From the IMG/VR virus record IMGVR_UViG_3300028178_000023, positions 1-21,781 of that record: a stretch of 21,781 bases of DNA, one strand, 5' to 3'. Shown here in pieces: positions 4,307-12,287 of the stretch. A program made the position numbers and the translations under genes. The notes under the pieces were generated by a model. That model was not told the DNA's origin. It worked only from the letters and a program-made list of their open reading frames with translations, and made no database searches. This stretch comes from a virus. Numbering within the stretch: the first letter of the stretch is position 1; each line of letters begins with the position of its first letter.

Positions 4307-4560
4307 TGAACAAGACTGAATCTAATCACATCATGAGAGTTAAAAACCTATCATGCGGTGTATGTAGTGCTAGTGCTCCTAGTGACGCTCACCATATTTT
4401 AGAAAACAGTCGTCGTATCAGTAACTTTGCAGTAATTCCGCTATGCAAATCATGTCATCAAGACAATCACAACGGCATACATGGCCGCAAAGCTATGTGG
4501 AAGATTATGAAAAAAACTGAATTATCAGTATTGGCTGAAACTATAGAAAGGTTAATGTAA
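4306..4560 (+). CDS. Ref-like RecA-dependent nuclease
   Basis: This 84-residue protein has the metal-binding layout of phage P1 Ref-type (RecA_dep_nuc) HNH proteins. It shows C17GVC20, the DAHH pair (H29, H30), C47KSC50H51, H55 and GIHGRK at 57-62. A helix with WKIMKKTELSVLAETI follows. Ref cuts DNA at RecA-formed displacement loops. This copy is only the globular nuclease core, as is usual for the shorter prophage members. It starts in the last base of the previous stop codon and ends in the first base of the next gene. Confidence 0.8.
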   Translation: MNKTESNHIMRVKNLSCGVCSASAPSDAHHILENSRRISNFAVIPLCKSCHQDNHNGIHGRKAMWKIMKKTELSVLAETIERLM

Positions 4561-5048
4561 TGGCACGTAAGCATTCCGATCAAGATTTAAGAAGGCTGGA
4601 AAGTTACAACAAAATACTCCAGACATGCAAAGGTAAACAGCTAAATTTTACAAGGATTGGTCAGCTTATAACCAACATATCAATTTCAAGTATTGTTAGA
4701 CACTGTAATTTTTTAGCTTCAACTGGCTATTTAAGCACTACGGAAATGCCAGCCGGCAAACATAATAAAATAGTTGATTTTTACACGACTGTAATTGATC
4801 AATATTTACTCGATGACTTAGAGTCAATTTCTGAAAAGATTAGGTTTACAAAGATTGTAAACGGAACAATTACAAAAGCATCTACAGAAGTTGCTGTGAA
4901 AGAAATTAATCCAAATCTCAGGAAAATAAATGTACAAACTGACAAAGACCTTCAGGCAAAACATAAGCAGCAGGATGAGTTAAACAGAAAAGCGCAAAAA
5001 TCACCAAAGAACTATATCAGCGGTTCAATCTTGAGTGCTGCAGTATGA
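4560..5048 (+). CDS. Putative winged-helix DNA-binding protein
   Basis: This 162-residue protein has an N-terminal stretch at about 12-75 that reads as a winged helix: RLESYNKILQTCKGKQLNFT, then a second helix, SISSIVRHCNFLASTGYLST and a strand pair with DFYTTV. The rest is polar and basic, with a likely flexible C-terminus (KHKQQDELNRKAQKSPKNY). It lies between the Ref-like and RusA-like genes with 1- and 4-bp overlaps. A regulatory or DNA-end binding role is inferred from fold only, and I do not recognise a family. Confidence 0.5.
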   Translation: MARKHSDQDLRRLESYNKILQTCKGKQLNFTRIGQLITNISISSIVRHCNFLASTGYLSTTEMPAGKHNKIVDFYTTVIDQYLLDDLESISEKIRFTKIVNGTITKASTEVAVKEINPNLRKINVQTDKDLQAKHKQQDELNRKAQKSPKNYISGSILSAAV

Positions 5049-6349: not shown

Positions 6350-6376
6350 AGCCCATTGCATAGTGGGCTTTTTTTA
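6350..6376 (+). terminator. Leader terminator 2, directly before the late genes
   Basis: AGCCCA pairs with TGGGCT across an 8-nt loop and is followed by a long T-rich run (TTTTTTATTTTT). The ribosome binding site TAGGAG of the next gene begins in the end of the T run. Late transcription must read through this hairpin to reach any structural gene unless another promoter lies downstream. Confidence 0.75.
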
Positions 6377-6391
6377 TTTTTAGGAGTCAAC

Positions 6392-6580
6392 ATGCTTTCG
6401 TCACTTGTCGGTGATTATTGGACAGTTAATTCAAATTCACGCAATGCAAATTGGTTTGTGGATGCGCGTGATAATAATTGGTTAGTGAATGTAAGAAATA
6501 GTAACTGGGTAGTTGATTTAAGAGAGGGAGCATTTAAAGTTGCTGCCCGTGTTCAAAATTGGATAGTTGATAAGAGGTAA
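6392..6580 (+). CDS. Small protein with strict 9-residue W/R repeats
   Basis: This 62-residue protein starts at ATG 6392, 7 nt after AGGAG. An upstream in-frame ATG at 6356 lies inside the terminator loop and is rejected. Arg falls at 17, 26, 35, 44, 53 and 62, exactly nine apart. Trp or Phe falls at 21, 30, 39, 48 and 57, also nine apart. The consensus is N-W-x-V-(D/N)-x-R-x-x, as in NWFVDARDNNWLVNVRNS. Alternating hydrophobic positions suggest short beta strands, perhaps a small sheet stack or a fibrous, trimerising element. It is followed 3 bp later by an Ig-like structural gene. The pairing and late position suggest a virion part, perhaps head decoration. Function is unknown. Confidence 0.65.
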   Translation: MLSSLVGDYWTVNSNSRNANWFVDARDNNWLVNVRNSNWVVDLREGAFKVAARVQNWIVDKR

Positions 6581-7505: not shown

Positions 7506-8918
7506 ATGGCAAGCGCGATAGAAAAGCGCGTCGCTATAGTCAAAGCTTCGTCCGATGATTTATATACATTCTCACGCTTTATGTTTAAGGAGCGTCGTGG
7601 CTATTCTTGGCTATGTGCAGAACATCATGAAACAATATGTGATGCATTGATGAAAGTATATCGAGGCGACACTACTCGATTAATCATTAACATTGCGCCT
7701 AGATACTCAAAAACAGAATTAGCCGTTATTAACTTCATGGCATGGGCTTTAGGCAATGCACCTAATGCTGAATTTATACACACTAGCTATTCAAGTGTTC
7801 TTGCGGCTAACAATGCATGGCAGACACGTGAAATGGTTCAGCATGAATCATACAAAGAGATATTCCCGAACGTTCAATTAAGAACGGATAGTGCTGCCAA
7901 GAGTGAATGGCGTACGACTGATGGTGGTATCGTTTATGCCACTGGTGCTGGCGGTACAATTACAGGTTATGGCGCTGGCAAGCATCGTGAAGGCTTTGGT
8001 GGTGCGATTATTATCGATGACCCGCATAAAGCTGATGAAGCCAGAAGTGATGTAATGCGAAACAATGTGATTGAGTGGTTTCAGAACACTCTTGAATCAC
8101 GCAAGAACTCACCACAAACACCAATCATTCTAATCATGCAGCGATTGCATGAAAGTGATTTGGCTGGCTGGCTGCTGAATGGTGGAAATGGTGAAAATTG
8201 GGAACACATCAAGCTTGAAACCTTGAAAGATGACGGAACGGCTTTATGGCCTGCTAAGCATGATGTAGAAACACTGCGCCGCATGCGTGATTCTAATCCA
8301 TATGTTTTCTCAGGACAGTATCAGCAATCACCAACCACCCCACAAGGTAACGTGATTAAGCCTGATGCAATGCCTGTTATAGAAGCTATTCCTTCTGATT
8401 TATCCATTCAATGGGTTCGTAAGTGGGATTTAGCCGCAACAATGCCTAAGGTTGGCAATGACCCAGACTGGACGGTTGGCGCAAGAATTGGCAAAGACCG
8501 TGATGGAAGGTTCTATATTACTGACATCGTTCGTATGCGTGGTTTGGCTGATGAAGTCGAAAGCGCCATTGTTAACACTGCTGCACGTGATGGTCGTTCT
8601 GTACGGATTGCAATATCTCAAGACCCTGGACAAGCTGGTAAGTCTCAAGTGTTGTATTTAACACGTAAATTAGCTGGTTATAACGTGGTTTCAAGCCCTG
8701 AAACGGGTGATAAGGTAACTCGCGCAGAACCAATGGCTGCGCAAATTAACGTAGGCAATGTCAGCATAATAAAATCGCCATGGAATGATGCGCTTATATC
8801 TGAAATGCGAATGTTTCCGAATGGCTCTCATGATGACCAAGTTGATGCTTGCTCAGGAGCCTTTAATGAGCTAATTGGTAACCAAGCCATGCAACGAATA
8901 AAACTTATAGGACTGTAA
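7506..8918 (+). CDS. terL: Terminase large subunit
   Basis: This 470-residue packaging motor has two domains. The ATPase has a Walker A-like APRYSKTE at 64-71, a Walker B GAIIIDDPHK at 166-175 and a coupling-like LIMQRLHESDLAGWLL at 209-224. The RNase H-like nuclease has acidic residues at D308 (VRKWDLA), D373 (ISQDPG) and D443/D444/D447 (SHDDQVDA). These are in the expected order, so the enzyme looks intact. The length is normal for this family. It translocates DNA through the portal and cuts the concatemer. Its stop shares a base with the portal start (TAATG). Confidence 0.92.
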   Translation: MASAIEKRVAIVKASSDDLYTFSRFMFKERRGYSWLCAEHHETICDALMKVYRGDTTRLIINIAPRYSKTELAVINFMAWALGNAPNAEFIHTSYSSVLAANNAWQTREMVQHESYKEIFPNVQLRTDSAAKSEWRTTDGGIVYATGAGGTITGYGAGKHREGFGGAIIIDDPHKADEARSDVMRNNVIEWFQNTLESRKNSPQTPIILIMQRLHESDLAGWLLNGGNGENWEHIKLETLKDDGTALWPAKHDVETLRRMRDSNPYVFSGQYQQSPTTPQGNVIKPDAMPVIEAIPSDLSIQWVRKWDLAATMPKVGNDPDWTVGARIGKDRDGRFYITDIVRMRGLADEVESAIVNTAARDGRSVRIAISQDPGQAGKSQVLYLTRKLAGYNVVSSPETGDKVTRAEPMAAQINVGNVSIIKSPWNDALISEMRMFPNGSHDDQVDACSGAFNELIGNQAMQRIKLIGL

Positions 8919-10324
8919 TGATTAAACCCGATACCCAACACAGCGATTACGCCAAAGCGCAAACTCGCTGGACTAAGTGCCGAGACGTTATAGACGGTGA
9001 AGACTCCGTTCATAAGGCAGGTGAATCATACTTACCTAAACTTACTGAGCAGACGGATGCTGATTACAAAGCCTATGTGCTAAGAACGCCATTCTATAAC
9101 GCAACGGCTCGTACGATTGATGGACTTGTTGGGATGTTGTTTCGTAAAGAGCCAGTTCTCAATATTCCAACAACATTACAACCAATTATTGATGATATTA
9201 CGTTAACGAATTGTGACTTTAACGAGCTATCAGAGATTGTTGCACGTGAAGTGATTGGTGTTGGTCGCGTTGGCCTGCTAGTTGAATATCCTCAAGTTGA
9301 AACTAAAGGAATTACCAAGGCGCAAGCATCATCACAAAACTTGCGCCCATACGTCACAACATACAAAGCAGAAAGCATTAATAATTGGCGTGCGGAACGT
9401 ATCAATAACGCAATGCAATTGGTTATGGCAACTCTTATGGAAGTTGCAACCGAATGGGTTAACGAATTTGAATCAAAACAAATTCAGCAAATTAGAGCAT
9501 TGTTGCTTGAAGAAGGAAAATACTTACAACGTGTCTATCGTAAGAATATCAGGGATGAGTGGGAGCAATTCAACGAGGATATTATTCCCCTGATGAATGG
9601 CAAGCCTTTAACTTACATTCCATTCGTTATATTTGGCCCATTCCACAATGATGTCAGCACTCAGAAGCCACCAGTGTATGACTTGGTTACATTAAATTTA
9701 AGTCATTACCGTAGCACGGCAGATTTAGAACATGGCGCACACTTCACTGGATTGCCAACAGCGGTTATTACTGGTTATCAGTCATTAGATGGTGAAAAGT
9801 TGAGTATCGGAAGTGCAACAGCTTGGGTATTTCCTGAACCAACGGCTAAAGCTACTTATTTGGAATTCACCGGGCAAGGTTTAAGTTCATTAGAGAACAG
9901 GCTTAAAGCTAAAGAGGCTGGAATGGCTGCTATCGGTGCCAGAATGCTTGCTCCTGAGAAGTCATCAGCAGAGGCTGAGAGAACTGTCCAAATGCGACAT
10001 GCTGGCGAAGGTGCTGTACTTGGCGTTATTGGTGACATGATTGAACATGGCTTTGACCGTATATTAAAAATTATTGCTGATTGGGAAGGTGTCAAAGAAG
10101 AAGTAAGCACAGAATTTAATGATGACTTCATTGATTCCGTAATGACATCACAAGATGTTCTTGCATTAGTTCAAGCATGGCAAGCAGGTGCGATCTCATT
10201 TGATTCGCTTTTCTGGAATCTTAAGCAAGGTGAACTTGTTGAAGGCGACAAAACTGCCGATGAAGAAAAAGTGCTAATCAAGGCTTATAAACCAGCCCCA
10301 GTTACTGAAACAATCATCGCATAA
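8918..10324 (+). CDS. Portal protein, DUF4055 family
   Basis: This 468-residue protein is recognised by the DUF4055 pattern. It has an N-terminal Y.....W...RD...G pattern, then YVLRTPFYNATARTIDGLVG, MLFRKEP, the ARAVxGVGR-like VAREVIGVGRVGLLVEYP, and YIPFVIFGP in the middle. LYxFTG-like YLEFTGQGLSSLENRLKAKE and a helix with MAAIGARML and SAEAERTVQMRHAGE complete the pattern. DUF4055 proteins act as portals, forming the ring through which DNA enters the head and to which the neck attaches. The gene lies between terL and the scaffold, as expected. A terminator-like hairpin follows. Confidence 0.82.
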   Translation: MIKPDTQHSDYAKAQTRWTKCRDVIDGEDSVHKAGESYLPKLTEQTDADYKAYVLRTPFYNATARTIDGLVGMLFRKEPVLNIPTTLQPIIDDITLTNCDFNELSEIVAREVIGVGRVGLLVEYPQVETKGITKAQASSQNLRPYVTTYKAESINNWRAERINNAMQLVMATLMEVATEWVNEFESKQIQQIRALLLEEGKYLQRVYRKNIRDEWEQFNEDIIPLMNGKPLTYIPFVIFGPFHNDVSTQKPPVYDLVTLNLSHYRSTADLEHGAHFTGLPTAVITGYQSLDGEKLSIGSATAWVFPEPTAKATYLEFTGQGLSSLENRLKAKEAGMAAIGARMLAPEKSSAEAERTVQMRHAGEGAVLGVIGDMIEHGFDRILKIIADWEGVKEEVSTEFNDDFIDSVMTSQDVLALVQAWQAGAISFDSLFWNLKQGELVEGDKTADEEKVLIKAYKPAPVTETIIA

Positions 10325-10343: not shown

Positions 10344-10374
10344 AAACCGCCTTTCTGTGATTGGCGGTTTTTTT
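10344..10374 (+). terminator. Terminator after the portal gene
   Basis: AAACCGCC (10344-10351) pairs with GGCGGTTT (10363-10370) across an 11-nt loop that contains CTGTG. The T run (10368-10374) completes a strong intrinsic terminator. It separates packaging and portal genes from the scaffold and coat genes. Confidence 0.85.
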
Positions 10375-10375
10375 A

Positions 10376-10431
10376 TGGACTGTGTCCACCCGCAACTGGT
10401 CTGTGACCAACGTTATTAAGGCTGTGCCTTA
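10376..10431 (+). repeat. Array of three TGT-loop hairpins, 21-nt period
   Basis: Three perfect short inverted repeats share a TGT loop and the core CTGTG: TGGAC-TGT-GTCCA (10376-10388), TGGTC-TGT-GACCA (10397-10409) and TAAGGC-TGT-GCCTTA (10417-10431). Their loop centres are at 10382, 10403 and 10424, exactly 21 nt apart. Stem sequences differ but pairing is kept, which argues for selection on structure or on palindromic DNA sites two helical turns apart. The last ends 13 nt before the scaffold start codon. It could be an RNA control site for scaffold translation or an operator. Confidence 0.7.
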
Positions 10432-10444
10432 GAAAGAAGCTACC

Positions 10445-11068
10445 ATGAAATTAGAAGATTTAACGCAAGAAAAACTAGATGAAGTATTAGCATCAGTTGA
10501 AGCAATGACAGCCAGTAATCAAGGATTAAAAGCAGATTTAGCCAAAGCGAAAGCAAAAGCAAAAGGTGCTGATATTGATCCTGAAGTCCATGCTGGATTG
10601 CAAACCCAAGTAGAAGAATTAACTACTAAGTTAGACAAGTTAACTAGAGATAGCACCAAGCAAATTGAAACTCTCAATAAAACTTTGGGTGATAAAGATG
10701 GTGCAATTAATAAATACTTAGTTGAATCTCAGTTAACTGATGCACTAGCAAAAGCAGGCGTAAAACCTGAGTTTATGGATGCAAGCAAGGCACTCCTTAA
10801 GTCACAAGCTACCATCAAATCAGAAAACGGTGAGTACAAAGCACTGATTGGCGACAAAGCGTTATCTGACCACGTAAAAGAGTGGGCAACTGGTGAGCAA
10901 GGCAAACATTTTGTAGCAGCAGCTGAAAATAACGGCGGCGGCTCTCAAGGTGGTGGCAATAAAGGAACTGGCAAAACAATGACAAGAGCAGAGCATGACC
11001 AGAAGTCAGCAGCTGGCGACAGAACCCTTCAAGCCTTCTTTAGAGAAGGCGGAACTCTAGTTGACTAG
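10445..11068 (+). CDS. Capsid scaffold protein
   Basis: This 207-residue protein is typical of scaffolds. It has a long, highly charged N-terminal helix or coiled coil (MKLEDLTQEKLDEVLASVEA, then LKADLAKAKAKAKG and VEELTTKLDKL). A middle segment follows (ESQLTDALAKAGVKPEFMDA, then DHVKEWATGEQGKHFVAA), then a Gly/Asn-rich linker (about 167-180) and a polar tail. Scaffold proteins guide coat assembly into a procapsid and then leave. The place directly before the coat gene supports the call. The ribosome binding site is weak (GAAAGAAG), and an unusual hairpin array stands just upstream, so synthesis may be controlled after transcription. Confidence 0.8.
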   Translation: MKLEDLTQEKLDEVLASVEAMTASNQGLKADLAKAKAKAKGADIDPEVHAGLQTQVEELTTKLDKLTRDSTKQIETLNKTLGDKDGAINKYLVESQLTDALAKAGVKPEFMDASKALLKSQATIKSENGEYKALIGDKALSDHVKEWATGEQGKHFVAAAENNGGGSQGGGNKGTGKTMTRAEHDQKSAAGDRTLQAFFREGGTLVD

Positions 11069-11087: not shown

Positions 11088-11110
11088 AGCCCGCTAAATG
11101 CGGGTTTTTT
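11088..11110 (+). terminator. Hairpin with T run before the coat gene
   Basis: AGCCCGC pairs with GCGGGTT (one G-U pair) around TAAAT and is followed by six T. The coat ribosome binding site TAGGA begins 6 nt after the T run. Partial read-through or antitermination would be needed for full coat expression from upstream. Confidence 0.78.
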
Positions 11111-11129: not shown

Positions 11130-12287
11130 ATGGCAAATACGCTTACCAACCTTATACCCTACATGTACGAAGGCGCGGACGTTGTTTCACGTGAGCTTGT
11201 TGGATTTATCCCAGCAGTAACGCGCGATACTAAATCAGAAGGTGCTGCATTAGGTCAAGTAATCAACATCCCAGTAGTGGGCGCGGTAACAGGTGGTAAC
11301 GTAACACCTGGTTCATTTCCTCCTGATGATGGTGACTTTGCTCCTGCAAATACCACAATGACCATCAGCAAGTCACGTTACTGGCCTATTCGCTGGTCTG
11401 GTGAAGATATTAAAGGCGTAGATCAAACAGATATTTATGGTCACGTTAATTCACAACGCTTTGCCCAGGCAATGCGTGCTGCTGTAAATGAAATTGAAAC
11501 CGATCTAGCTAACCTTTACCAATTTACATCACGTGCTTACGGTACGGTTGGTACAACACCATTCGGTGTTGCTGGTGACCTTTCAGACGCTTCACTTGTT
11601 CGTCAGATTCTTGAAGATAACGGTGCGCCTACCGGCGATTTACAAATGGTTCTTGGCTCAAGCGCAACGGCAAACATACGCGGCAAACAAACTATTCTTC
11701 TGAAAGCAAATGAAGGTGGTGACGTTCGATTGATGCGAGATGGCTCTATCTCTGCTTTACCTGTTGATGGTTTCAACCTTCACTTATCAGGTCTAGTAAC
11801 AGCACCTGCCGTTGGTAACAACACTGGCGGTTACACATCATCTGCGGCAGGTTTTGCAGCTGGCTCAACAACCATTGCGGTTATTACAGGTACAGGTACC
11901 ATCCTTGCAGGTGACATCATCACATTTGCAGGTGACACCAATAAATATGTTGTAGCAACAGGCGTTGCGGCGGCGGGTAATCTGGTAATTGCAGAGCCTG
12001 GCCTACGTCAAGTACTACCAGCATCAGCCACAGCAATCACCATTATTGCATCAGCAAAACGAAACATGGCGTTCAGTAAGTCAGCCATCGCACTGATCAC
12101 TCGTGCTCCTGCACTTCCTTCAGGCGGTGATATGGCAACTGATCAAGTTCAAATTACTGACCCGTTCAGCGGCATGACATTTACGATCTCAGAGTACAAG
12201 CAATACAAGCGCGTTAAATACGAGCTTGCAATTGCATGGGGTGTTAAAGTTATTGCTCCTCGTCATACGGCAATCTTAATCGGTTAA
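11130..12287 (+). CDS. Major capsid protein, P22 coat-like
   Basis: This 385-residue protein follows the P22 gp5-like coat family with the HK97 fold. The N-terminal ADVVSRELVGFIPAVTRDT is followed by VINIPVVGAV and a PG.FPPDDGDF segment. A long helix is seen at about 104-133 (VNSQRFAQAMRAAVNEIETD), then YGTVGTTPFG and a LQMVLGSSATANIRG segment. A beta-rich insertion at about 236-308 contains ILAGDIITFAGDTNKYVV, and the C-terminus contains YKQYKRVKYELAIAWGVKVI. The insertion matches the accessory domain of P22-type coats. The start has AGGA 9 nt upstream. It forms the shell with the scaffold encoded just before it. Confidence 0.88.
   Translation: MANTLTNLIPYMYEGADVVSRELVGFIPAVTRDTKSEGAALGQVINIPVVGAVTGGNVTPGSFPPDDGDFAPANTTMTISKSRYWPIRWSGEDIKGVDQTDIYGHVNSQRFAQAMRAAVNEIETDLANLYQFTSRAYGTVGTTPFGVAGDLSDASLVRQILEDNGAPTGDLQMVLGSSATANIRGKQTILLKANEGGDVRLMRDGSISALPVDGFNLHLSGLVTAPAVGNNTGGYTSSAAGFAAGSTTIAVITGTGTILAGDIITFAGDTNKYVVATGVAAAGNLVIAEPGLRQVLPASATAITIIASAKRNMAFSKSAIALITRAPALPSGGDMATDQVQITDPFSGMTFTISEYKQYKRVKYELAIAWGVKVIAPRHTAILIG

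Follow-up and report, generated by a model that had tools for sequence, protein, structure and literature searches.

A tandem array of same-loop hairpins in the scaffold leader of a phage genome and its relatives

The intergenic region between portal and scaffold genes

The window analysed here is the whole 21,781-nt stretch of virus DNA in IMG/VR record IMGVR_UViG_3300028178_000023, for which searches of INPHARED with the window DNA and, by tblastn, with its scaffold protein returned no match. A hairpin array lies in the intergenic region between a DUF4055 portal gene and a scaffold gene, which is followed by a P22-type coat gene. The features are as follows.

8918–10324, + strand: portal protein (phrog_145, DUF4055), by profile match; the array is downstream
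10345–10369, + strand: terminator-like hairpin AACCGCC-TTTCTGTGATT-GGCGGTT followed by a T-run; its inner TC-TGT-GA (10354–10360, centre 10357) is a fourth array element
10376–10388, + strand: hairpin 1, TGGAC-TGT-GTCCA, centre 10382, from direct reading and an exhaustive triloop scan; stem changes are compensated in relatives
10397–10409, + strand: hairpin 2, TGGTC-TGT-GACCA, centre 10403, from the same reading and scan; covariation in relatives
10417–10431, + strand: hairpin 3, TAAGGC-TGT-GCCTTA, centre 10424, from the same reading and scan; just 5' of the Shine-Dalgarno-like stretch
10431–10439, + strand: Shine-Dalgarno-like AGAAAGAAG, from the sequence, starting where hairpin 3 ends
10445–11068, + strand: head scaffolding protein of 207 aa (phrog_206, clade A), by profile match
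11130–12287, + strand: major capsid protein (phrog_283, P22 coat family), by profile match

Reading of the sequence together with the triloop scan bears out the initial annotation in describing three TGT-loop hairpins with an exact 21-nt spacing that occurs twice, a last hairpin 13 nt before the ATG at 10445, and a fourth TGT loop capping the upstream terminator. Hairpin 3 could be extended by one further outer U-G pair. On both strands of the window, the occurrence of at least two same-loop hairpins is confined to 80-nt stretches covering the array, and none of 5000 dinucleotide shuffles of positions 10366–10444 contains two such hairpins; a chance origin of the array is excluded.

A second terminator-like hairpin with a T-run, AGCCCGC-TAAAT-GCGGGTT, is located between the scaffold and coat genes at 11088–11110, so that the scaffold gene is bracketed by terminator-like hairpins on both sides. 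A search for a sigma-70 promoter between the portal and scaffold genes of the window found none; TATAAT-like boxes are visible by eye, unscored, just 5' of the array in several relatives. Elsewhere in the window, positions 6356–6580 hold a small ORF of repeated short W-containing units (NWFVDARDNNWLVNVRNSNWVVDLRE...) without a PHROG match, and an inverted repeat with perfect 8-bp arms around an AGA triloop, GTTTACAA-AGA-TTGTAAAC, is found at 4844–4862 within the ORF at 4560–5048.

Structure prediction for the window leader indicates that hairpins 2 and 3 form with a probability of about 0.97–0.99. Hairpin 1 has a rival, in that a mutually exclusive helix is predicted between UAUGG (10374–10379) and CCAUG of the start codon (10443–10448). 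Among the tested relatives the start codon is predicted to be paired more often than not only in L017 and, more weakly, in L044 and L230; a switch based on this long-range pairing was considered and dropped, its conservation in these relatives not being general. Compared with shuffled sequences, the predicted folding of the window leader is only weakly better (z −1.0).

Arrays, covariation and loop classes in relatives

Related loci were collected in IMG/VR scans with the window scaffold (50 loci), with the coat protein (80) and with the HK639 scaffold (80), and named phages joined the set through coat matches. Most scaffold leaders of these relatives contain arrays of short perfect hairpins, among which three groups are seen. 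Clade A, the window type with scaffolds of about 200 aa, has two to four hairpins with the triloop NGT, the final loop being AGA or TGA where the Shine-Dalgarno sequence is overlapped (GTCC-AGA-GGAC, centre about −12); in some sub-clades the Shine-Dalgarno sequence is contained in this last hairpin. Clade B, comprising DUF6651 scaffolds including that of HK639, has the tetraloop GGAT on hairpins at about −18, −40 and −60. Group C is mixed, includes PF06810-type scaffolds, and has heterogeneous loops (AAG/TAG/GAG, GGA, GGGAT, GAGAG and others). In the scaffold tree, the NGT-type leaders L165, L204 and L224 are placed outside the main clade-A branch, and among the leaders inspected a clear array is missing from some with related scaffolds, for example L164, L063 and L064. 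The constant 21-nt spacing envisaged initially is not kept in relatives, since neighbouring hairpins in clade A are mostly 16–25 nt apart, with a mode of 20–21 nt.

Arrays are also present in independent loci, namely scaffold relatives in bacterial genomes outside the set from which the loop rule was formed: L226 (Bordetella) has the loops CGA/TGA/AGA, L227 CGT/AGT/AGA, L230 AGT/TGT and L235 AGT/CGC. Because the first loop base varies, only one of 11 such loci passes a strict identical-loop test. The arrays of L237 and, read by eye, L236 have CAA/AAG loops, which suggests from sequence that a whole array can switch its loop together, and L233, L234 and other bacterial-genome loci have fewer hairpins or none that are clear.

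Paired stem changes in relatives, which the initial annotation had proposed to look for, were found. Across 18 loci and three hairpins, 98% of cells are paired, compared with 60% after shuffling and 35–49% in slid controls; changes on both sides occur in 13 of 14 stem pairs, and covariation is 0.986 versus 0.214 shuffled and no higher than 0.155 in slid controls, these counts being biased towards structure because the alignment is centred on the hairpins and its rows are loci where hairpins were seen. Counts that pick sites by their loop rather than by pairing, with a stem threshold of at least four pairs, are free of this bias. By this measure 53 of 130 NGT sites in clade-A leaders have a stem, versus 218 of 10128 elsewhere in the same loci, and the complementary orientation ACN has one in 1 of 106 sites in clade-A leaders. 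For GGAT in clade-B leaders the count is 67 of 90, versus 63 of 939 at other places in these loci, the latter including some coat-leader copies. The loops thus occur in the mRNA sense only. G-U pairs are present in the stems of relatives, and the 61 clade-A sites comprise 53 distinct stem-loop sequences. In the close relatives L018, L019 and L022 the first stem reads ACGTC, GTGTC and ACGCC, respectively, and is paired in each, with nearly identical flanks. At this position, about −60 from the scaffold start, stem replacement outpaces change in the flanks, which could reflect template switching or recombination.

While stems vary, loops within a leader agree: at least two strictly identical loops are present in 36 of 85 leaders versus 12 of 3588 control windows, and 56 identical loop pairs are observed versus at most 37 after permuting loops among leaders.

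Related loops are found at two further places. An apical NGT or NGA triloop is present in 14 of the 17 upstream terminator-like hairpins detected in clade A, the window included, and in 0 of 25 in clade B, where for clade A some loci are closely related and the terminators are strong only in part. The matching loops in clade A hint that whatever reads the array may make contact with the upstream transcript at its end as well. In several clade-B phages whose scaffold and coat genes are separated by a long gap (L166, L061, L062, L192 and L054), two further GGAT hairpins precede the coat gene, and in L151 and L178 the scaffold and coat leaders have the same or nearly the same loops (GGA-type, GGGAT).

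Comparison with known regulatory elements

In Rfam 15 the array has no match at the gathering score, either in the window or in the scanned relatives, and the matches in the window at E<10 are weak terminator look-alikes. A separate Rfam element, the int-alpA RNA (RF02996), was seen in L052 (Acinetobacter phage qsb1) at 8075–8145, just before an antirepressor gene. Our literature search found no description of these hairpins; most subscription papers were outside its coverage, and an earlier description is possible.

GP20 motifs are reportedly described in a paper of 2017. The nearest known element is the GP20-a RNA (RF02991), classed as cis-regulatory in Rfam and named after the GP20 (scaffold-type) gene of phages, which resembles the window array in being placed before a phage scaffold gene (that of the window being phrog_206) and whose alignment ends in AGGAGG, similar to a ribosome-binding site. 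Its structure of 97 positions, however, consists of one hairpin and one composite stem, unlike the tandem same-loop array of the window, and it was seen in two genomes out of 291 from a single bacterial class. The GP20-a covariance model (gathering score 47.2) has no match in the window record and none over the cut-off in 14 related records. An accession for GP20-b was not found in Rfam, RF02988, RF02990 and RF02992 being other families. The candidate motif TwoAYGGAY has, by its name, two elements with one common sequence (AYGGAY); it is listed without a cis-regulatory role from gut, gamma-proteobacterial and Clostridiales samples and, unlike the array, without a link to scaffold genes (Weinberg 2010, PMC2864571).

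Two precedents concern the control of capsid-assembly proteins. The P22 scaffolding protein, the product of gene 8 and of the same gene type as the window scaffold, limits its own synthesis post-transcriptionally. We know of no RNA site for this control, and P22 differs from the window in lacking such a leader or array, which would be impossible there because the gap between portal and gene 8 is only 13 nt. The coat protein of MS2 or Qbeta binds a short RNA hairpin at the ribosome-binding site, where it recognises bases in the loop and tolerates changes in the stem. The working principle, a capsid-assembly protein at a hairpin by the ribosome-binding site, is similar to that proposed below, but these ssRNA phages have a single operator with a bulged A that is read by coat, whereas the arrays of the dsDNA phages described here have three or four tandem hairpins without a bulge and track the scaffold.

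Possible readers of the loop

The sequence comparisons give good support to an RNA-level array located in the 5' leader of the scaffold mRNA. Loop class is associated with scaffold clade: when 44 loci common to all three trees are compared, it changes four times for scaffold, seven for portal and 11 for coat, and on 63 loci five times for scaffold and 14 for coat, with loop classes assigned by hand and quick trees having some long branches. Since the array adjoins the scaffold gene, linkage by itself would tilt the comparison towards the scaffold tree; counter to this, the portal gene, directly upstream in many loci, fits loop class less well, and linkage is a partial explanation. The scaffolds scanned, in all groups, belong to the phrog_206 superfamily, which includes the PF06810-type Pm86 scaffold. 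In clade-A scaffolds the basic motif KAKAKGADIDP (residues 36–46), where the first predicted helix ends, is largely invariant and is a candidate RNA contact. No known RNA-binding domain was seen in the AlphaFold model of the scaffold (mean pLDDT 82.5), and searches of the PDB, by fold with this model and by sequence and profile, gave nothing significant.

The reading that we favour, with confidence only just above even, is that of a translational operator with loops recognised by a factor of the phage, most probably the scaffold protein, which would thereby repress its own synthesis. Each hairpin would offer the same triloop (UGU in the window) on an interchangeable stem, so that a loop-reading protein could occupy three to four neighbouring copies, the last of them beside or over the ribosome-binding site, which protein on the loops would cover. 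Surplus unassembled scaffold would occupy the array and keep ribosomes from loading onto the scaffold message, and consumption of scaffold in proheads would relieve the binding, giving autogenous translational control. Protein binding, the scaffold as ligand and repression as the outcome are what we infer; given the P22 precedent, autogenous repression by free scaffold would be the simplest account, and activation or protection is a possible effect in place of repression. Hairpins with compensatory changes in the leader of the gene under control, as expected of an autogenous operator of a capsid-assembly protein, are indeed found. The initial annotation had considered an array on the mRNA to which scaffold, coat or another regulator would bind, and the paired stems, constant loop, mRNA sense, position at the ribosome-binding site and link to scaffold clade uphold this for scaffold or another regulator, with the coat part faring differently as described below.

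Another trans-acting reader of the same RNA operator array, either an RNA-binding protein of the phage or a regulator of the host like CsrA/RsmA, is rather unlikely but is the strongest competitor, because the loop rule implies a reader without naming it. CsrA/RsmA leaders and CsrB-type sponges likewise combine multiple hairpins that share a loop motif and lie near or over the Shine-Dalgarno sequence, and their core GGA is present in the GGAT/GGAA loops of clade B and in some loops of group C (GGA, GGGAT, AGGAC), but it is absent from the UGU loops of the window and from clade A generally (UGU/AGU/CGU). Moreover, GGAT arrays are found in phages whose hosts differ widely (Escherichia, Klebsiella, Salicola and Synechococcus), some of these hosts presumably lacking CsrA, and the association of loop class with scaffold clade also counts against this reading.

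Ligand-free leader structures, in which tandem hairpins set translation efficiency, protect the mRNA or provide a ribosome standby site, are improbable. The location at the ribosome-binding site, the sub-clades with the Shine-Dalgarno sequence in the last hairpin and the stem variability expected of a purely structural role are consistent with such structures, but these would leave unexplained the one shared loop per array, the differences among lineages and the mRNA-sense orientation, and the loops differ from the usual stable tetraloops.

The coat protein, the other abundant head protein, could read the array in the manner of ssRNA phage coat operators, and the hairpins repeated before the coat gene in some clade-B and group-C phages point in this direction. 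Nevertheless, this is very unlikely, and the coat as specificity determinant is unsupported, because clade A keeps NGT beside two coat families told apart by profile searches, P22-type phrog_283 and phrog_247/Gp13-like (the latter paired with the nearest scaffold to that of the window, L010 at 63%), and because the coat tree fits worst, with its 11–14 changes against four or five for scaffold. The multi-site DNA operator or packaging signal suggested initially, or single-stranded DNA hairpins, would suit perfect dyads spaced by two helical turns but is barely credible, because the would-be half-sites are neither conserved in sequence nor held in register at the variable clade-A spacing, the stems contain G-U pairs and the loop orientation is bound to the mRNA strand.

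Returning to the scaffold as reader, a broader proposition is more tentative and, on balance, doubtful: many dsDNA phages with phrog_206 scaffolds may have a private RNA loop code in which the scaffold reads hairpins in its own leader, in some coat leaders and, in clade A, in the terminator upstream. Head assembly would in this way be linked to translation and perhaps to transcription read-through, and joint switches of loop and protein between lineages would give mutually orthogonal circuits.

The arrays point to an unrecognised RNA switch by which the phage probably adjusts its scaffold production. Post-transcriptional limitation of scaffold was worked out genetically in P22, to our knowledge without a defined RNA site, and with the arrays many phages offer a specific site that is easy to mutate, among them the isolated HK639 and Klebsiella phage ST405-OXA48phi1.3, where UGU versus GGAU loops and the scaffold variants give a built-in test of specificity. 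Should the scaffold be the ligand, a common superfamily of phage proteins would have an RNA-binding activity of a kind so far undescribed, and would supply orthogonal RNA-protein pairs.
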